Origin: Vulcanimicrobiota bacterium
GTDB lineage: Bacteria > Vulcanimicrobiota > Vulcanimicrobiia > Vulcanimicrobiales > Vulcanimicrobiaceae
Length of the DNA stretch: 11,870 nt
Assembly (NCBI GenBank): GCA_013289785.1
Contig: JABCZE010000019.1
Coordinates: 1 to 11,870 of the forward strand
Direction of reading: 5' to 3'
A program made the position numbers and the translations under genes. The notes beneath the pieces are model-generated. The model was given only the letters and a program-made list of their open reading frames with translations, made no database searches and was not told the origin of the DNA. Each line of letters opens with the position of its first letter. Positions within the stretch are counted from its first letter, which is position 1. This document shows, one piece after another, positions 3,587-11,870 of this stretch.

Positions 3587-4804
3587 TCACGGCGCGATGC
3601 TAAAGACGGTCCCATTTCCATCCGTTCCGCCTCCCACCGTCGTCCCGTAGAGTCTTCCGCCGAGGACGGTTAAGGGCGTTTGGGGATACGCACCATCTGA
3701 GCCCCCCGTAAATCGGAAGAGCACGCGCTCCGTACCCGAAGCGTTTATCGAGAAGATCGTGCCGCAACCGTGGTAGAACTTGCAGCTAATCCCGCCACCT
3801 TCAGTTGTCGTGCCGTACAGCGTACCGTGATAGTCGACGAGCGTTCCGTTGGGGGCCTCGCCGTCGAGATCGCCTTTGAAGCTATAGACGATACTCTCGC
3901 TGCCCGACAATGTGACCTTGAACACGGCGCCCGCGTCGTTCGCGCCGCCCGTTGGCGTGGTTCCGTACAGCTCCCCGCGATCGAGGAGTAAGCCGCCGAC
4001 TCCCGGCCTCTCGCCGTCCGGCTCTCCCGCGAAGTTGTACAATATGCGCTCCGAGCCGGACGTGCCGACGGCAAAGACGGTGCCGCAGCCTTCGCTGCAC
4101 GAGCCGGTGCCTCCATAATTCGTAGTGCCATAAAGCGTTCCGTTCACGTCGACTACGGGTGCCTGGGGGTCCGCGCCGTCGGGCTGGTTGCCAAAGTCGT
4201 GGAGCACAGTTTGGTTGCCGGAAGCGTTCAGCGCATAGACCGTTCCGAAGCCCTTGCTTCCGCCGTCGAGCGCCGTCCCATAGAACGTGCCGCTTTTCGC
4301 GGTCACGGCAGCCCAAGGGCTGTTTCCGTCCGGCTCCTCAAGGCTGTAGAGAACGCTCTCCGCGCCAGCGCTCGTTACGGAAAAGACAGTACCGGCGTTA
4401 CCGCTCCCGCCGCCTGAAGTCGTTCCATAGAGCACGCCATGTCGCGCGAGCAATTCGCCAAGTGGGTACTCACCGTCGGGCGTCTCCGCAAAACTGTAGA
4501 GCACGCTCTCCGTCCCGCCTTTCGAGAGCGAAAAGACCGTGCCGAAATCATTTGCGCCGCCGTAGAGAGTCGCGCCATACAACGTGTGACCGATGGCAAT
4601 TACGCCGTTCTGCGGATTGGCGCCATCGGGGCGGTTCGCAAAGCTGTAGAGCGACTTGAAGCCGTGGTCCGCGACGGCGTGCGCTTCCGGTGGTAGTGCG
4701 CGCGGCGCCGCGATCGGTTGTGGTGACCCGCAGCCGGCGAACAGCGCGGCGGCGGCCACGCTAAAGCCGATGGACGTCCATTGCACGGCTCGATCCATTT
4801 TCAT
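3587..4804 (-). CDS. GloVer-type tandem-repeat lipoprotein
   Basis: A 405-residue exported protein. The N-terminus (MKMDRAVQW, hydrophobic run, LFAGC with Cys25) is a lipoprotein signal peptide, so it should be lipid-anchored outside the cytoplasmic membrane. After a short Pro/Ala linker (26-50) the rest is seven tandem repeats of about 50 residues with the pattern LYSFxxxPDGxxP...LYGTTxxGGxxxxGTVF, the Gloeobacter/Verrucomicrobia (GloVer) repeat family. Function of the family is unknown. Repeats 4 and 6 carry insertions with paired cysteines (236/240 and 341/347), possible disulfides. The start is ATG 4804, whose ATGA overlaps the stop of the upstream substrate-binding protein; the longer open frame to 4897 would lie inside that gene and lacks a signal peptide at its N-terminus. 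No Shine-Dalgarno sequence is visible, consistent with coupling. Confidence 0.85.
   Translation of the reverse strand: MKMDRAVQWTSIGFSVAAAALFAGCGSPQPIAAPRALPPEAHAVADHGFKSLYSFANRPDGANPQNGVIAIGHTLYGATLYGGANDFGTVFSLSKGGTESVLYSFAETPDGEYPLGELLARHGVLYGTTSGGGSGNAGTVFSVTSAGAESVLYSLEEPDGNSPWAAVTAKSGTFYGTALDGGSKGFGTVYALNASGNQTVLHDFGNQPDGADPQAPVVDVNGTLYGTTNYGGTGSCSEGCGTVFAVGTSGSERILYNFAGEPDGERPGVGGLLLDRGELYGTTPTGGANDAGAVFKVTLSGSESIVYSFKGDLDGEAPNGTLVDYHGTLYGTTTEGGGISCKFYHGCGTIFSINASGTERVLFRFTGGSDGAYPQTPLTVLGGRLYGTTVGGGTDGNGTVFSIAP
3590..4651 (-). repeat. Seven coding GloVer repeats
   Basis: Protein-level tandem repeat within the lipoprotein gene. Units start at residues 52, 102, 152, 201, 255, 306 and 362; the last ends at the C-terminus, residue 405. 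Each unit has the core LYxF, a PDG turn, an LYGTT strand, a GG turn and GTVF. Unit 3 is shortest (49 residues); units 4 and 6 are longest (54 and 56) because of the cysteine-bearing insertions. The units are diverged at the residue level, so this is an old expansion and not a recent DNA duplication. Confidence 0.8.
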
Positions 4805-6429
4805 ATGGTCCAACGCCAGGCATCCCAGGATTCGACGACCGGGTTGGGATCGAAGCCGTGGAAGTCGACGCTTATTGCTTCTTGCTGGCGCTGCCACCAG
4901 AAGAAGAGGATCGGGTTGTCACGCGCGAGGAGGTGCTCGATCTTCGAGTACGCCGCCCGACGCGTCGCGCGATCGTAATGGGATAGCGCGACGGCCTGCG
5001 CGGCGTCCATTTCCCGGCTGCAGTAGCGCGGGTCGTTATAACCGTGGGGCGGGAAGTTGTTGCAGGTAAGTTGGGACGAATTATCTGGGTCGATGCCGGC
5101 ATACCACCCATAGGCCAGCATGTCGAACTTTCCGCCGTGCTGGATGCCGCCCATGGCTTGCGGTGCGTAGAGCAAGTCGAACGGATAGTACTTCACATCG
5201 ACGGCGACCCCGATCCGCTTGAGCGCCGCCTGAATCAAAATGCTCTCCGACCGGTGCGTCGCGCTCGCATTATCGGTGACCAGCAGCAGCTCCAGCGGCT
5301 GCCCCTGCTTTCGGACCATTCCGTCGGGGCCGGCGACCCATCCGGCTTGTGCGAGCAGCTGCTTCGCGCTCGTCAGGTCGAACGGCACGGATCGCACGCT
5401 TGGATCGAAGGCCCACATCCAGTTCGGCAGATCTTCGGTCGCCGGAAGCGTCTGTCCGTGGGTGAGGGTGGTCGTGAAAGACGGTTTGTCGAGCGCCGCC
5501 GCGATTGCTTCACGCACGCGAGTATCGGCCAGCAGCGGATGCGACAGGTTGAACTCCACGCCCTCGAAGCCGTTGGCGTTGACCCACACGATGCGCCCAT
5601 CGGGTAGGGAGTGTAGCGTCGGGTACGTTTGAATAGAGGGCTGGTAGAGATAGTCGATGGCGTGAGTACGCAGCAAGTTGGTGCCCGAGTCCTCGTTGGG
5701 GACGAAGAGTATTTCGACTCGCTTCAGTCCCGGGGTCCCGGCAAAGAACCGAGGATTGGCCTCGAGCAGAATGCGATCGGCGCGCCGCCATTCCACGAAG
5801 TTGAAGGGCCCGTCGCCGACGCTGGGCCGCGCGTTGAAGGGCACGCTATTCACGTTTGGGTAGCGCGCCAGAACGTGTGCGGGGAGAATTTCGTACGGCT
5901 GGTCGCTCTCGGCAAAAAAAGTGTTCACGAAGGGCGAAAAGCGCTGCTTCAAGTGCACCACGACCGTGTGTGCGTCCGGCGTGTCGATCGCCCGCACTTG
6001 GTCGTAGCCGTGGCGCGAGACCGCGTCGTTGTTCGGGTTCTCGATGGCCTGCCACGACCAGGCAACGTCGTGCGCCGTTACCGGGATGCCGTCGCTCCAA
6101 GTCGCGTTGCGCCGCAAATGATACGTGATCGTGAGACCGTCGGCGCTAATGCCGCCGTTGGCTTGCGACGGTACCACGGCGGCGAGCATGGGCACGGTAT
6201 CGCCGCGCGCGTCGGCCGACAGCAGAGGCTCGAACATGAAGCGGTCGATGAAGATCTCGATCGTAGTACCGGCGAGCAAGGGATTGAGATTCTTCGGTTC
6301 TTCGGTGACGGCGACACGCAACACGCCGGCATGCGTCCAGGAATGGCGCGCGCCGGGCGTCGAGCCATTTTTCGTGCATCCCGCCAAACACGCTATGACG
6401 GCTGCCGATAGCACCGTGGCCGCTTTCAT
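4801..6429 (-). CDS. Peptide-type ABC transporter substrate-binding lipoprotein (SBP family 5)
   Basis: A 542-residue extracytoplasmic solute-binding protein of the OppA/DppA (SBP_bac_5) family, usual length 500-560. The N-terminus MKAATVLSAAVIACLAGC is a lipoprotein signal with a perfect LAGC lipobox (Cys18 from this start). Family motifs: VLRVAVTEEPKNLNPLL, DRFMFEPLLSADARG, ITYHLRRNATWSDGIPVTAHDVAWSW, VGDGPFNFVEW, VEFNLSHPLLADTRVREAIAAALDK, and a C-terminal NPILFFWWQRQQEAIS. It should bind oligopeptides or another bulky solute and deliver it to an ABC importer. No permease or ATPase gene is in the window. Start: ATG 6429 gives a clean Met-Lys signal peptide; an in-frame GTG at 6438 adds three residues and cannot be excluded. 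The stop overlaps the GloVer lipoprotein start (ATGA), so both lipoproteins are probably made together. Confidence 0.9.
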   Translation of the reverse strand: MKAATVLSAAVIACLAGCTKNGSTPGARHSWTHAGVLRVAVTEEPKNLNPLLAGTTIEIFIDRFMFEPLLSADARGDTVPMLAAVVPSQANGGISADGLTITYHLRRNATWSDGIPVTAHDVAWSWQAIENPNNDAVSRHGYDQVRAIDTPDAHTVVVHLKQRFSPFVNTFFAESDQPYEILPAHVLARYPNVNSVPFNARPSVGDGPFNFVEWRRADRILLEANPRFFAGTPGLKRVEILFVPNEDSGTNLLRTHAIDYLYQPSIQTYPTLHSLPDGRIVWVNANGFEGVEFNLSHPLLADTRVREAIAAALDKPSFTTTLTHGQTLPATEDLPNWMWAFDPSVRSVPFDLTSAKQLLAQAGWVAGPDGMVRKQGQPLELLLVTDNASATHRSESILIQAALKRIGVAVDVKYYPFDLLYAPQAMGGIQHGGKFDMLAYGWYAGIDPDNSSQLTCNNFPPHGYNDPRYCSREMDAAQAVALSHYDRATRRAAYSKIEHLLARDNPILFFWWQRQQEAISVDFHGFDPNPVVESWDAWRWTI

Positions 6430-6491
6430 CGCGTTCACTTCTACGGTGACGAGGCCGCGGCTTCCCGTAAGGCGAAGCCCAATTCACGTCC
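6430..6491. promoter_or_regulatory. Divergent intergenic spacer between the lipoprotein operon and purB
   Basis: This 62-base spacer must hold promoters for both the minus-strand lipoprotein pair and the plus-strand purine block, unless purB is read from elsewhere. No convincing -35/-10 pair is visible on either strand, and no Shine-Dalgarno sequence precedes purB. An inverted repeat, GGCTTC (6459-6464) and GAAGCC (6474-6479) with a 9-base centre, sits near the middle and could be a shared operator. No match to the E. coli PurR or B. subtilis PurBox consensus was recognised. Confidence 0.35.
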
Positions 6492-7910
6492 ATGGATCAT
6501 CGAACGTACGCCTCGCCGTTCTCCTGGCGATATGGCCGCGCGGAACTTCGCTCGCTGTTTTCCGAGCAGCAGCGGCGGCGGCTCTGGCGCGCCGTGTGGG
6601 TCGCCCTGGCCGAAGCACAATTCGCGCAAGGCCTGGTCGCGCAGGCCGAGCTCGACGATCTGCGCGCGCACGCCGGCGACATCGACATCGAGGCGGCCTT
6701 GGCGATCGAGCGTGAGATCCACCACGACTTGATGGCCGAGATCCGCCTCTTTGCATCGCAGGCAACGCGCGGCGGCGGAAAGCTCCACCTCGGTGCGACG
6801 TCGATGGACGTCGAGGATACCGTCGAAACCTATCGGCTGCGGCTGGCGCTCGCGTATGTCGGTTCCAATCTGCGCGAGCTGCTTACAGCCTTCGCCGAGA
6901 AGATCCGCGCGAATGCGGATCTCGTCTGCATGGCCTACACGCATCTTCAGCCGGCCGAGCCGACGACGCTTGGCTATCGATTCGCAAGCTACGCTCAAGA
7001 CTTGCTCGTCGACGACGAAAACTTACGGTTCGTCTTCAACAATCTCACGACGAAGGGGCTGCGCGGCGCCGTCGGCACGGCTGCGTCCTACGAACGCCTT
7101 CTGGGCGAGAACGGCCGCTCGGCGGAGCTCGAAGCTTACGTGCTCGAGCAGTTTGGGTTGACCGCTCGCGAGATCAGCACCCAGACCTATCCACGAAAGC
7201 TCGATTATCTGCTGCTCTCCGCGCTGGCTGGCCTGGGGGCATCGCTCTCGAAGTTTGCGGCCGACGTTCGCGTCCTGGCAAGTCCGGGCTTCGGCGAGCT
7301 GGGCGAGCCGTTCGCGAAATCGCAAGTCGGCAGCTCCGTCATGCCCTTCAAACAGAACCCAATTCTGAGCGAGCGGATCGACTCGCTGGCTCGATTGCTG
7401 CCCGGCTACGCCGACGTCACCTGGCAAAATGCCGCGACGAACTACCTCGAGCGAACGCTCGACGATAGCGCGAACCGCCGCATCGTCCTGCCCGAAGCGT
7501 TGCTCTGCGCCGACGAGTTGGTAACGCTCGCTCGCACGGTCATCGAAGGGCTGCGCGTCGAGGAGCGGCGCATCGCTCAAAACGTCCGCACGTATGCTCC
7601 CTTCTGCGGCACGCAGACGGTGATGATTGAAGCGGCGCGAGCCGGCGGAGACCGTCAGCTCTTGCACGAAACGCTGCGCGATGCATCGATGGAAGCGTGG
7701 GAAGCAGTTCGTCGCGGTGACGAGAATCCGCTTGCGGGCCTCTTGACGGAGCGTGCAGAGTTGACCGCACTCGTTGACCCGGCCGAGATACGGCGGTTGC
7801 TCGACCCAAGCGGTCACGTCGGTACCGCGCCGCAACGCGCGCGGCTCTTGGCCGACCGCATCGAAGTTTTGCCGCCCTTCCCCCGTCAAACCGAGGTGCG
7901 CCTGACGTGA
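6492..7910 (+). CDS. purB: Adenylosuccinate lyase
   Basis: A 472-residue member of the fumarase/aspartase superfamily. PurB splits SAICAR to AICAR plus fumarate, and adenylosuccinate to AMP plus fumarate, in purine synthesis. The three superfamily conserved regions are present: KLHLGATSMDVEDT, YTHLQPAEPTTLG with the general-acid His151, and the signature loop GSSVMPFKQNP (residues 280-290) carrying the catalytic serine. The N-terminus SPFSWRYGRAELRSLFSEQQ matches the PurB start, so ATG 6492 is well placed although no Shine-Dalgarno sequence is seen. It is about 40 residues longer than the common 430-residue form; the extra is largely a C-terminal tail after DPAEIRRLLDPSGHVG. It opens the purine block, and its product shares the SAICAR intermediate with the next gene, whose start it overlaps by 4 bases (GTGA). 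Confidence 0.93.
   Translation: MDHRTYASPFSWRYGRAELRSLFSEQQRRRLWRAVWVALAEAQFAQGLVAQAELDDLRAHAGDIDIEAALAIEREIHHDLMAEIRLFASQATRGGGKLHLGATSMDVEDTVETYRLRLALAYVGSNLRELLTAFAEKIRANADLVCMAYTHLQPAEPTTLGYRFASYAQDLLVDDENLRFVFNNLTTKGLRGAVGTAASYERLLGENGRSAELEAYVLEQFGLTAREISTQTYPRKLDYLLLSALAGLGASLSKFAADVRVLASPGFGELGEPFAKSQVGSSVMPFKQNPILSERIDSLARLLPGYADVTWQNAATNYLERTLDDSANRRIVLPEALLCADELVTLARTVIEGLRVEERRIAQNVRTYAPFCGTQTVMIEAARAGGDRQLLHETLRDASMEAWEAVRRGDENPLAGLLTERAELTALVDPAEIRRLLDPSGHVGTAPQRARLLADRIEVLPPFPRQTEVRLT
7893..7898 (+). promoter_or_regulatory. Ribosome binding site of purC
   Basis: GAGGTG lies inside the purB 3' end, 8 bases before the GTG at 7907. It supports that start over any other and shows that the gene can recruit ribosomes itself besides being coupled to purB by the GTGA overlap. 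Confidence 0.6.
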
Positions 7911-9106
7911 ACAAAGGCATAGAAATAACGCGCGGCAAGACGAAGGTACTCTACGAGAATCCCGGTCAGCCCCATCAACTCGTCGTCGCGCAGACCGATC
8001 AGATATCCTCGGGCGACGGCGCGCGCCGTAACGTGATTGCCGGCAAGGGGCGGCTGGCCGCGCAGACGACCGCGCGCGTCTTTCGCTTGCTCAATCTCTG
8101 CGGTCTGCCGACGCACTATCTCAACGGCGGCGAGGATGACGACAACAACGAAATGGTCGTCCGGCGCGCCAACATGATTCCCCTCGAAGTGGTGACCCGC
8201 GGCATTGCGGCCGGGTCGTTTGCCAAGCGCAACCCCGGGCTCGCGCGAGGAACGCTGCTCGTGCCGCACGTGATCGAGTTCTTCTTTAAAGACGACGCGG
8301 CGCACGACCCGATGATCACGCCCGACCAAATCGTTGCGCAAAACATCGCCGCACCGCAAGAGGTCGGCGCGATGACCGAACTAGCACGGCTTACGTTCGA
8401 CATCCTGTCGCATGCGTGGCGCAAGCGCGACGTGATGTTGGTCGATCTCAAGATCGAGTTCGGGCGGCTCGCGGGTGGCGAGAACCAGGGTCAGCTCGTG
8501 ATCGCCGATGTAATCGACAACGATTCGTGGCGAATCTGGCAGCAGGGCCGCGAGGAGCTGATGCTCGATAAGCAGCTCTACCGGAACCTCGAAACCGTCG
8601 ACGAGCCGGCCTTGGAGATGGTCAAGCAGGCCTACGAGCGAGTCGCGGATTTCGTTGGCACGTTTCCGGTCATGCGGTCGGGGATGGTCGCGGTGATTGC
8701 CGATTCCGCCTCGCAGGTCGAGCGCGCCAACGAGATCGGCAAAGCGCTCGGTCAGCTTGGCGTCCCTTCGGTACGCCACGTGGCCAGTGCCGCGTCCACA
8801 CCGGGTTTCGTGCTCCAGTTGATGGCGCAACTCGAAGCGAGCTTCGCGCGCCTCGTCGTGATTCCGGTCGGCGAAAACGAGTTGCTGCGTTCAATGCTCG
8901 AAGCGGCCTCGTCGGCGCCGGTGGTCGACGGTCGCGACGATATCGCTCGTGTGATGATGCAGTGCGCGAAGGTCTTTGGACTCGAAGACACCGTGCTTTT
9001 TGGCCGCACTCTGCTGATGCAGGCTAATGCGCGGTCGGCCGTGCTCCATGCCGATGCGTCGCTCCAGCAAGCTCCGCAGTTGTCGCAGAAGGCTGCGCTT
9101 GGTTAA
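7907..9106 (+). CDS. purC: SAICAR synthetase fused to a degenerate PurE-like domain (PAICS-like)
   Basis: A 399-residue two-domain protein. Residues 1 to about 250 are SAICAR synthetase (ATP-dependent ligation of aspartate to CAIR): RGKTKVLY at 9-16, DQISSGDGARRNVIAGKG at 31-48, MIPLEVVTRGIAAGSFAKR at 90-108, LVDLKIEFG at 178-186, DVIDNDSWRIW at 201-211, DKQLYRNL at 221-228. Several stretches resemble the animal PAICS enzyme more than E. coli PurC, for example GSFAKRNPG, EFFFKDD and ADVIDNDSWR. Residues about 259-383 align with AIR carboxylase (PurE), giving the PAICS domain order, but the PurE active-site loops are lost (see the separate domain entry). Typical stand-alone PurC is 235-300 residues. 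The SAICAR synthetase half looks fully functional; carboxylase activity is doubtful. GTG 7907 overlaps the purB stop and has a good ribosome binding site. The stop overlaps purL. Confidence 0.92.
   Translation: MNKGIEITRGKTKVLYENPGQPHQLVVAQTDQISSGDGARRNVIAGKGRLAAQTTARVFRLLNLCGLPTHYLNGGEDDDNNEMVVRRANMIPLEVVTRGIAAGSFAKRNPGLARGTLLVPHVIEFFFKDDAAHDPMITPDQIVAQNIAAPQEVGAMTELARLTFDILSHAWRKRDVMLVDLKIEFGRLAGGENQGQLVIADVIDNDSWRIWQQGREELMLDKQLYRNLETVDEPALEMVKQAYERVADFVGTFPVMRSGMVAVIADSASQVERANEIGKALGQLGVPSVRHVASAASTPGFVLQLMAQLEASFARLVVIPVGENELLRSMLEAASSAPVVDGRDDIARVMMQCAKVFGLEDTVLFGRTLLMQANARSAVLHADASLQQAPQLSQKAALG
8681..9055 (+). other. Degenerate PurE (AIR carboxylase-like) domain of the PurC fusion
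   Basis: Residues 259-383 of the fusion. By eye, against PurE sequences recalled from memory, the segment from DSASQ (266-270) to APVV (337-340) aligns without gaps to E. coli PurE from GSKSD through VPVL. Framework positions such as LGVP, the SA..TP frame, the VV strand and the PV strand are kept. The active-site residues are not: GSxSD becomes DSASQ, SAHRTP (class I) or SAHKGP (class II) becomes SAASTP, so the key histidine is Ala296, and the GGAAHLPG (class I) or GRSNGLGP (class II) loop becomes GENELLRS. The following loop appears about 9 residues shorter than in E. coli PurE. Codons stay GC-ending (47 of 60 for residues 263-322), so the frame is still selected. A structural or regulatory role is inferred, not shown. 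Confidence 0.7.
9087..9092 (+). promoter_or_regulatory. Ribosome binding site of purL
   Basis: AGAAGG lies within the end of purC, 6 bases before the TTG at 9099. It decides the purL start, because no ATG or GTG is available in frame at the position where PurL homology begins. Confidence 0.5.
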
Positions 9107-11279
9107 CCTCCGTGACGAGGAGCTGCAACGCATCGCCGAGCGGCTCGGCCGAGATCCATCGGTCGTGGAGCTGCACGCCTTCGATGCGGCGTGGAGCGAG
9201 CATTGCAGCTATAAGTCGAGCCGCCGCTTCCTAAAGACCCTTCCCACCAGCGGGGCGCGCGTGATCCTCGGGCCGGGCGAGGATGCTGGAATTCTCCATC
9301 TTGGCACGCACGACGGCGAGCGCTACGCGATCGTCGTCGCGCACGAGTCGCACAACCATCCATCTCAAGTCGTTCCCTTCGAAGGCGCGGCGACCGGAAT
9401 CGGCGGGATCGTTCGCGACGTCCTCTGCATGGGTGCCGAGGTCGTTGCGGTGGCCGATCCGCTGCGTTTCGGCCGATGCGAAGACCTTGGATCGCATCAA
9501 AGCCACGTCGCGCGCGGGGTCGTGGACGGGATCGGCGCCTACGGAAATGCGATCGGCGTTCCCAATCTCGCCGGCGACGCCTACTTCGAGCGCGGCTTCA
9601 ACGAGAACTGTTTGGTCAACGTCGTCGCGCTGGGAATCGTCAACGAGAAAGACGTCATCCACTCCTACGTACCCAAAGGAGCCGAAGGTTGGCAGATCGT
9701 GCTCGTCGGAAAGGCGACCGATCCCAGCGGTTTCGGCGGAGCGTCGTTTTCATCGGTCGCGCTGGATGCGCGCGACGCGGAGCTTAACAAAGGCGCCGTG
9801 CAAGTCCCCGATCCGTTCTTCAAAAACGTTTTGATGCGCGCGAGCTACCGTGTCTTTGCGCTCTTGCGGGAGCGCAAGATCGGTGCGGCCTTTAAAGATC
9901 TTGGCGCGGGCGGCATCGTTGGATGCTCCGCGGAGGTTACGGCGCACGGCGGATACGGCGCCCAGATCGATCTCGACAGCGTCAACGTTGCGGTCGAAGG
10001 GATGCCGCCCGAGGTGATCGCCGTCGGCGAGACGCAGGAACGGATGCTCTGGGTGGTTCCACCGGATTTCGTTGGCGAGCTGCTTCAGATCTATAACGAG
10101 GAGTTCGGGCTCCCGGACGTCGCCTACAACGCGCGCGCCACGGCGATCGGCGAAGTGACCGCGCAGCAGCAATACGTTCTGCGATATCGCGGCGCGGTCG
10201 TGATGGACGTCGAAAGCGAGTTTCTCACCGGATCGATTCACGACGAGCTGCCTTACACGGAAAAGATTTATCACGGCGCGGCCGCCCAAGAGCTTCCGGC
10301 GGTGGACCTCCAGGAAATCTTCCCACGCGTGCTGGCGCACCGCGACGTCTGCTCGCGCGAGCCGCTCTACCGGCGTTACGATTCCGTCGTACGAGGGCGC
10401 ACCGTTCTGCCGCGCGGCGCGGCCGACGCCGGGGTTCTGGCGGCCGTCCCTGGCTCGCGTCTTGGCGTCGCGCTCGCCGTTGCCGGCAATCCGCGTTACG
10501 GGCGCATCGATCCGGCGTATGCCGCCGAGCAGGCCGTCCTGGAAGCGATGCGCCGCGTCGTTGCCGTCGGCGCCCACCCAATTGGTTTGACCGATTGTTT
10601 GAACTTCGGCAATCCCCGAAAGGCCGAGCAGTACGGCACGTTCGTCGCGGCAGTCGAGGCATTGGGCCGAGCTGCAGCGGAGCTCGACCTGCCGTTCGTT
10701 TCCGGAAACGTAAGCCTCTACAACGAAGCGTCAGACGGGCGCGCGATTCCCGCCTCGGCGATCGTCGCGTGCATCGGCTCCATCAACGATATCGCAAACG
10801 TCGTGACGCCGGGCTTCAAAGCGGCCGGATCGCCGCTGTTGTGGATTGGAAGCCGGGAACTGGTCGCGGGCGGATCGGTCTTGGCCGAGCTGCTCGGCGT
10901 CAAGGGAACGCTTCCGAGCATCGAGTACGACGCCGAACGCGCCGCGCTTGCAATCGTGCGAGATGCAATTGCGCGCGGCGTCCTGCGTGCCTGCCGCGTC
11001 GTCGCCGACGGCGGAATGCTGACGGCGGTTGCGCGCTTGGCTTTCGACGCTCGGCCGGCGGGGCGAAAGATCGGCGCGGAGATCGACTTCGGCAATCCGC
11101 TCTGCGAAGCCGGCGGTTTCGTCTGCGAAGTCGCTCCCGACAGCGGTATGGACATGACCGGAACGCTCCAAATCGGCGTGACGATCGATGCGCCCGAACT
11201 GATCGTCAACGGGACTCGCTTTGACGTCGAGCATTTGCATGAGATTTGGTCGCAGCCGTTGGCGGCGCTCTACCCATGA
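9099..11279 (+). CDS. purL: Phosphoribosylformylglycinamidine synthase subunit PurL (short form)
   Basis: A 726-residue protein, the usual size of small PurL (about 720-750), which with PurQ and PurS converts FGAR to FGAM using ATP and glutamine-derived ammonia. Motifs: the linker start DEELQRIAERLGRDP, AWSEHCSYKSS with conserved His35, AHESHNHPSQ (81-90), GAATGIGGIVRDVLCMGA, GGASFSS (213-219), FKDLGAGGIVGCSAE, and in the second half LTDCLNFGNP, FVSGNVSLYNE and VVADGGMLTAVA. The lysine usual two residues before ESHNHPS is replaced by Ala81 (VAHESHNHPS). There is no N-terminal PurS-like domain. The start is TTG 9099, overlapping purC by 8 bases and preceded by AGAAGG; the open frame upstream is shadow inside purC. 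The stop TGA overlaps the purQ ATG. Confidence 0.92.
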   Translation: MVNLRDEELQRIAERLGRDPSVVELHAFDAAWSEHCSYKSSRRFLKTLPTSGARVILGPGEDAGILHLGTHDGERYAIVVAHESHNHPSQVVPFEGAATGIGGIVRDVLCMGAEVVAVADPLRFGRCEDLGSHQSHVARGVVDGIGAYGNAIGVPNLAGDAYFERGFNENCLVNVVALGIVNEKDVIHSYVPKGAEGWQIVLVGKATDPSGFGGASFSSVALDARDAELNKGAVQVPDPFFKNVLMRASYRVFALLRERKIGAAFKDLGAGGIVGCSAEVTAHGGYGAQIDLDSVNVAVEGMPPEVIAVGETQERMLWVVPPDFVGELLQIYNEEFGLPDVAYNARATAIGEVTAQQQYVLRYRGAVVMDVESEFLTGSIHDELPYTEKIYHGAAAQELPAVDLQEIFPRVLAHRDVCSREPLYRRYDSVVRGRTVLPRGAADAGVLAAVPGSRLGVALAVAGNPRYGRIDPAYAAEQAVLEAMRRVVAVGAHPIGLTDCLNFGNPRKAEQYGTFVAAVEALGRAAAELDLPFVSGNVSLYNEASDGRAIPASAIVACIGSINDIANVVTPGFKAAGSPLLWIGSRELVAGGSVLAELLGVKGTLPSIEYDAERAALAIVRDAIARGVLRACRVVADGGMLTAVARLAFDARPAGRKIGAEIDFGNPLCEAGGFVCEVAPDSGMDMTGTLQIGVTIDAPELIVNGTRFDVEHLHEIWSQPLAALYP

Positions 11280-11870
11280 GCGCGAGGATTGCGGTTCCGG
11301 TCTTTCCCGGGACGAACTCCGAAGACGAGACGCTTCGGCTGCTCCGTGACTGCGGCGGTGACGCCGAGATCGTCCATTGGTCGCAGGCGGACTCCCTGGC
11401 GCACTACGATGCGTACGTGCTCTCGGGTGGCTTTGCCTACGAGGATCGCATCCGGGCGGGAGCGATCGCGGCGCACGACCGAATGATGGGCTACGTCATC
11501 GAAGCGGCCGCGAGCGGAAAGCTCGTCTTGGGTATCTGCAACGGCGCGCAGATTCTCCTCGAAGCCGGCCTCGTGCCGGGCACCGGCCCGGTTCGCCGGC
11601 CGACCGCGGCGTTCACGCGCAACGGACCGGCACCGCATTTTATCTGCCGGCACGTCTACATGAAGCTCGCAATCGAGCCTGAGCGTTGTGCAATTACCGC
11701 GGCGCTGCCGCAGGACGCGCTGGTGCCGGCTTGGGCCGCGCATGCCGAGGGGCGCCTCGCCGCGACGGCGGAGCATCTGAGTGAGATCGTGGCCGGCGGC
11801 CACCTCGCCTTCATCTATGCAAATGCAAACGGCAGCGTGGACCAAGGCGCGAATCCCAACGGATCGGCGC
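11276..11870 (+). CDS. purQ: Phosphoribosylformylglycinamidine synthase subunit PurQ, 5' part (3' end outside window)
   Basis: The glutaminase subunit of FGAM synthase, a class I glutamine amidotransferase that feeds ammonia to PurL. The 198 visible codons read without a stop to the window edge. Motifs: RIAVPVFPGTNSEDETLRLL at the N-terminus, YVLSGGFAYEDRIRAGAIAA, the nucleophile elbow LGICNGAQIL with Cys88, AWAAHAEGR (the family AHGEGR motif), and DQGANPNGS just before the edge. The C-terminal PHPER segment with the rest of the catalytic triad should lie within about 30-50 further codons, outside the window. ATG 11276 overlaps the purL stop as ATGA, so the two subunits are probably made in a coupled ratio. 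No strong Shine-Dalgarno sequence is seen. Confidence 0.92.
   Translation, partial: MSARIAVPVFPGTNSEDETLRLLRDCGGDAEIVHWSQADSLAHYDAYVLSGGFAYEDRIRAGAIAAHDRMMGYVIEAAASGKLVLGICNGAQILLEAGLVPGTGPVRRPTAAFTRNGPAPHFICRHVYMKLAIEPERCAITAALPQDALVPAWAAHAEGRLAATAEHLSEIVAGGHLAFIYANANGSVDQGANPNGSA

Follow-up and report, generated by a model that had tools for sequence, protein, structure and literature searches.

A PAICS-type fusion protein of the Vulcanimicrobiaceae with a conserved PurE domain that has lost its carboxylase site

The window analysed here, an 11,870-nt stretch from a Vulcanimicrobiota bacterium of the family Vulcanimicrobiaceae (assembly GCA_013289785.1), is the entire contig C19 (JABCZE010000019.1) of a genome assembled in 361 contigs, and it carries the genes purB, purC::purE*, purL, and purQ in that order. 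The purC::purE* gene encodes a single chain of PAICS-type architecture, in which a phosphoribosylaminoimidazole-succinocarboxamide (SAICAR) synthetase domain (PurC) is followed by a PurE domain, designated PurE*, that has kept the fold and lost the site of 5-aminoimidazole ribonucleotide (AIR) carboxylase. A preliminary description of the sequence had proposed a PAICS-like PurC fusion, and both the open frame at 7907-9106 and the Pfam matches to SAICAR_synt and AIRC agree with it. The features of the locus are as follows.

7907..9106, plus strand: purC::purE* fusion gene, 399 amino acids, GTG start (open frame; Pfam SAICAR_synt and AIRC; AlphaFold2 model)
7907..8656, plus strand: SAICAR synthetase (PurC) domain, residues 1-250, site residues retained (alignment; Pfam SAICAR_synt on residues 7-235, 197.8 bits)
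8678..9070, plus strand: PurE* domain, residues 258-388
8699..8716, plus strand: first loop lost, ADSASQ (residues 265-270) replacing MGSTSD (alignments)
8786..8803, plus strand: catalytic loop lost, SAASTP (residues 294-299) replacing SAHKGP (alignments)
8867..8887, plus strand: glycine-rich loop lost, VGENELL (residues 321-327) replacing VAGRSNGL (alignments)
8927..8944, plus strand: approximate place of a 26-residue active-site deletion, residues about 341-346 (alignment with intact relatives)
8990..9067, plus strand: conserved C-terminal helix, residues 362-387 (DSSP of the model; own-family conservation)
6492..7910, plus strand: purB, upstream neighbour, overlapping purC by 4 bases (Pfam Lyase_1 and ADSL_C)
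9102..11279, plus strand: purL, downstream neighbour (Pfam AIRS, AIRS_C, FGAR-AT linker); the start at 9102 is assumed from comparison with locus L003, and a longer frame starts at 9027
11282..11866, plus strand: purQ, truncated by the contig end (PF13507, 94 bits)

Pfam profile search placed AIRC on residues 261-340 against profile positions 2-81, with a score of 28.7 bits for the whole protein, under the cut-off of 30, and 31.4 bits for the tail alone, over the cut-off. The alignment to PurE had been described as free of gaps from DSASQ to APVV; this stands for the Pfam match, in which both stretches span 80 positions, but not for human and silkworm PAICS, against which the third loop has one single-residue gap. 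The AlphaFold2 model of the fusion (predicted local distance difference test score 91.6, predicted template modelling score 0.88) and structure search gave residues 258-388 a confidently predicted PurE fold rather than an unrelated one. Searched against PDB sequences, the whole protein aligned with PAICS as far as residue 340-341 (E 8e-61 and 5e-55), and the tail alone gave weak PurE matches (silkworm PAICS, E 0.0046; human, 0.095). Armadillo-repeat entries ranked above PAICS for the tail (E 2.8e-06) and were set aside on the view that a short stretch resembles repeated units by chance; structure search returned PurE for 258-388. Within its own family the fusion was matched over its full length down to 57% identity, and these matches together with the confident predicted fold establish that the PurE similarity of the tail is not due to chance. 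The best named relative, among the best 120 of 2699 matches, was a protein of Candidatus Cybelea sp. (96% identity), which NCBI places in the Vulcanimicrobiaceae of the Vulcanimicrobiota. The high use of GC-ending codons reported earlier for 60 codons was seen across both parts of the gene (201 of 250 codons in PurC, 99 of 131 in the PurE* domain).

The first domain is identified as a SAICAR synthetase by the profile match and by conserved substrate residues. The equivalents of human Gly16-Lys19, Lys131, Asp133, Asp137, Lys191, Glu193, Asp207, Asp212, Trp214, Arg215, and Lys228, site residues listed in an excerpt of PMC9376930, were invariant in a 76-row alignment whose rows were chosen from three protein searches (best 120 of 2699, 4955, and 2454 matches) and six loci.

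Alignment with human PAICS bore out the loop replacements that had been noted in the second domain (DSASQ, SAASTP, and GENELL). Human M272-G-S-T-S-D277 corresponds to A265-D-S-A-S-Q270 of the window protein and human S301-A-H303-K304 to S294-A-A296-S297, with His303, Lys304, and Asp277 replaced by Ala296, Ser297, and Gln270; the AGRSNGL loop has become GENELL and is one residue shorter. The window protein also lacks a stretch of about 26 residues found after the PV(V) strand in intact relatives, a deletion that the preliminary description had overlooked. The window PurE* therefore lacks an intact AIR carboxylase site (His303, Lys304, Asp277, AGRSNGL) and the marks of a class II PurE enzyme (loops SAHK and AGRSN, with the segment after them), and the class I PurE loops (SAHR, GAGG-AHLPG) are absent from residues 258-342. 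An excerpt of PMC9376930 names the catalytic His as the only possible base and reports that its substitution inactivates characterised enzymes. Judged from the alignments, the PurE* domain is probably catalytically inactive.

A search with the window protein matched 120 of 149 genomes of the phylum, six of which (families f14 and f15) gave weak matches to PurC only, without the tail. Fusions of at least 350 amino acids were analysed in 79 cases: 55 from the window's own family (f1), four from a sister family in the same order (f2), 13 of 14 from f3, in the same class (the remaining one, G028, is truncated by a contig end), and three, one, and three from f6, f8, and f13. The 89 matching f1 genomes comprised these 55, seven (genus g35) with a tail-less purC, one (G034) with a stop-broken gene, and 26 that were not fetched. 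The catalytic-column His was present in 13 of 13 f3, three of three f6, one of one f8, and one of three f13 fusions, giving 18 intact domains. None of the four f2 fusions retained it, the column holding Gln in three and Leu in one, and it was found in 3/55 f1 fusions. The 26-column segment was complete in every f2, f3, f6, and f8 row and in one f13 row; no more than five residues were left in all 55 f1 rows, and 10 and 11 in the two decayed f13 rows. By alignment, f2 is thus an intermediate in which the His is gone and the segment is still there. A local error or recent mutation was ruled out by the recurrence of the loop changes and the deletion in the 55 own-family fusions, among them that of genome G118 (L094, L121), which is very probably Vulcanimicrobium alpinus WC8-2. 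At L043/L087 (G112, contig C9) and L054 (G034) the PurC part of the fusion gene is interrupted by a single internal stop; a second G112 contig bears a purC without the tail, so that C9 may be foreign to the bin.

A separate, intact purE was present in the window's own genome, where class I purE is followed by purK on contig C63, away from the fusion operon, and encodes the loops SAHRMP and GAGGSAHLPG. PurE was scored as present when its best match had an E no higher than 1e-44, and fragments of PurK at contig ends were counted. By this tally, an intact fused domain is accompanied by class I PurE and PurK in one genome of 18 (G007). Beside decayed fusions, PurE was found in 4/4 f2 and 52/55 f1 genomes (missing from G056, G079, and G071), and PurK likewise in 4/4 and 52/55 (missing from G056, G079, and G077). 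In G071, purK starts 6 bases from a contig end. The gene adjoining purE in G055 is present in G053 and G104 and is also missing from G056 and G079, and the absence of PurE-PurK from the latter two fits an assembly gap. Genome G007 (f6; L078/L130) is the sole one to combine an intact fused class II domain with class I PurE and PurK, possibly the same replacement at its start. The G118 genome contains class I PurE and PurK, and an excerpt of PMC9758169 describes V. alpinus WC8-2 as requiring high CO2 even in heterotrophic growth.

Phylogenetic analysis of 37 hand-picked PurE domains separated the 20 fused domains from the 17 class I domains by a 99/96 branch, with f1 and f2 joining at 98/90 and f3 joining them at 98/91; of 21 class I PurE loci fetched, a motif search had missed four (L123, L124, L130, L133). 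In this tree, which has no named class II reference, the fused domain groups with the class II type and apart from class I; the intact fusions are called class II on the strength of PAICS alignment and structure. In a tree of 31 PurC domains, also hand-picked, f1 and f2 joined at 91/99 and f13 formed one clade (100/96), within which the intact G133 stood outside the pair G131 and G132; the decay in f13 is therefore separate from that in f1 and f2. Three changes of the His state and two of the deletion are needed on the PurC tree. The intact bacterial fusion L073 showed 43-50% identity to named animal proteins (best 120 of 4955 matches), a likeness that makes the starting fusion and animal PAICS proteins of one kind, and which bears on the origin of animal PAICS.

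The ratio of nonsynonymous to synonymous substitution rates (dN/dS) indicated purifying selection on the domain, with medians of 0.040 for PurC and 0.058 for the domain in six close pairs, and of 0.077 and 0.151 in 44 wider pairs. The domain thus has the properties of a pseudoenzyme: an enzyme fold retained, catalytic residues gone, and purifying selection acting. We also compared constraint between f3 and f1 at PurC identities of 0.75-0.9 (55 and 865 pairs, respectively). Identity at 18 active-site columns was 0.92 in f3 and 0.41 in f1, that of the C-terminal helix 0.56 and 0.75, and that of the remaining domain 0.77 and 0.59. In f1 the helix is the best-conserved part of the domain, close to PurC itself (0.80), and constraint has shifted from the active site to the C-terminal helix. 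This conservation pattern favours a putative role in assembly. PMC12229671, in excerpt, describes the C-terminal helix of human PAICS as critical at the interface of oligomerisation and reports that the Arg403Ter variant, which lacks this helix, retains 21% of activity and has a reduced octamer.

We propose that a class II fusion, redundant beside PurE/PurK, decayed to a pseudoenzyme that is kept for the assembly of PurC, and we give this explanation a probability of about 0.6. A class II AIR carboxylase adds CO2 straight to AIR, without PurK. The ancestor would have been a bacterial PAICS-type fusion of PurC with such an enzyme; separate class I PurE and PurK in f1 and f2 would have made the fused carboxylase redundant, and the domain would then have lost the catalytic His, the loops, and the 26-residue segment. 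Carboxyaminoimidazole ribonucleotide (CAIR) would now come from PurK and class I PurE, and SAICAR still from the PurC domain. The PurE* fold and C-terminal helix would still assemble PurC domains into a PAICS-like oligomer, hence their retention. The earlier suggestion of a pseudoenzyme kept for a non-catalytic role is supported, with assembly as the probable role, and the view that PurE/PurK caused the redundancy draws on a correlation to which f13 is an exception.

Several observations weigh against this explanation. The structural model is a monomer, and the PAICS-like oligomer state is one that we infer. The catalytic-column His persists in the f1 fusions L091, L093, and L114, and the domain evolves faster than PurC in the wider pairs. 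The class I PurE genes of f1 and f2 did not form one clade in the tree, leaving a single acquisition unsupported. Assembly searches found no other PurE or PurK in G056 and G079, and neither protein in G131 and G132 (L079 and L075), which carry decayed fusions (G131 is 61% complete; G132 is 100% complete by markers, in 940 contigs); this f13 exception speaks against a strict rule. In g35, purC has about 254 codons and is directly followed by purL, without a PurE* match in six of the seven fetched genomes (L080-L083, L085, and L086), the seventh (L084) ending at a contig end; with the tail lost and PurC still in the operon, PurE* is dispensable in this genus at least. Tagging human PAICS at its C-terminus left homo-oligomers unweakened and weakened contacts with other enzymes (PMC9035706, in excerpt), and the conserved C-terminal helix may likewise mean other partners.

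The last point leads to an unlikely alternative, in which PurE* is an adaptor that docks onto class I PurE or other Pur enzymes, or forms joint assemblies with them, and so lets CAIR reach PurC unreleased. Class I PurE shares this fold and is itself octameric (octameric structure entries; PMC11451730, in excerpt), and it occurs in nearly all own-family genomes, but the purE-purK pair lies on a different contig, away from the fusion operon, and the decayed f13 fusions occur without any PurE found. In the particular form in which mixed assemblies with class I PurE dock PurC and rebuild the AIR-to-SAICAR channelling of PAICS across two genes, the idea is doubtful. That PurE* is a relic without a role, its deletion still to come, is hardly more convincing: tail loss in g35 and the faster evolution of the domain would suit it, but both dN/dS medians are far under 1, the frame is open over its full length in the 55 own-family fusions (a set chosen for length), and conservation of the C-terminal helix is close to that of PurC. 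A ligand-binding regulator, sensing AIR, CAIR, or another nucleotide for PurC without catalysis, would accord with a fold retained at high predicted confidence and with Ser294 of the former site, kept in 51/55 f1 fusions; the former site is nevertheless the least conserved part, the ribose-binding Asp, loops, and segment are gone, and this decay makes a shared ligand there unlikely, so that we regard such a regulator as improbable. Continued AIR carboxylase activity through a rebuilt site is scarcely credible, for although the domain is decayed in G131, G132, G056, and G079 and their assemblies yielded no other PurE, the His named as the sole possible base is absent together with two loops and the segment, the missing neighbour gene in G056 and G079 points to a gap, and almost every own-family genome has PurE and PurK.

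Replacement of PurS by PurE* was also considered. The purS gene often sits where the tail sits. The Pfam PurS profile found no match in the window's own genome and matched 13 of 149 genomes, none of them in f1. Just after purQ, locus L003 has a 144-amino-acid open reading frame (10137-10571) that looks by eye like a long, divergent PurS. The candidate was dropped in view of this frame and of weak PurS matches in five genomes of f3, whose fused PurE is intact.

Compared with animal PAICS (6yb8, 2h31, 4ja0), a bifunctional AIR carboxylase/SAICAR synthetase, the window fusion lacks the carboxylase site and the 26-residue segment, and its genome adds separate PurE and PurK. The intact fusions of f3, f6, f8, and G133 are the same fusion, all fused domains falling on one side of the 99/96 branch, but they keep the site residues, and G007 alone among the 18 also carries class I PurE and PurK as separate genes. 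Treponema denticola has a class II PurE (3rg8, 3rgg) that stands alone and is active, with a kcat reported in an excerpt of PMC9376930, whereas the window domain is fused and without the site; class I PurE, the N5-carboxyaminoimidazole ribonucleotide mutase, is a separate gene in the window's genome, and the fused domain groups apart from it. Among the papers listed by our searches of open-access literature, none reports a PurC-PurE fusion in this phylum or a PurE pseudoenzyme. Fusions and pseudoenzymes are already known; a PAICS whose PurE is dead yet conserved, with its intermediates in one phylum, is new to judge by these searches.

Elsewhere in the window, two minus-strand frames were characterised by eye: one of 436 amino acids (3587-4897) with repeats of about 45 residues and LYGTT..GG..GTVFS motifs, and one of 545 amino acids (4801-6438) resembling a peptide ABC transporter substrate-binding lipoprotein.

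The name AIR carboxylase has been given to some proteins of f2 and f3 (among the best 120 of 2454 matches), a label that is uninformative on activity in f1 and f2. A pseudoenzyme is usually encountered as an end point, whereas here the stages coexist within one bacterial phylum: intact-looking fusions, 17 of 18 without separate PurE/PurK, the f2 intermediate, the dismantled f1 domain, clean loss in g35, and a second decay in f13. One member of this family of soil bacteria, very probably Vulcanimicrobium alpinus, is in culture. The change from an enzyme to a probable scaffold can thus be traced stepwise across this family and related ones, and it opens the questions of what role the PurE part of PAICS may have beyond catalysis and whether a second enzyme would free a fused domain to serve as a scaffold.
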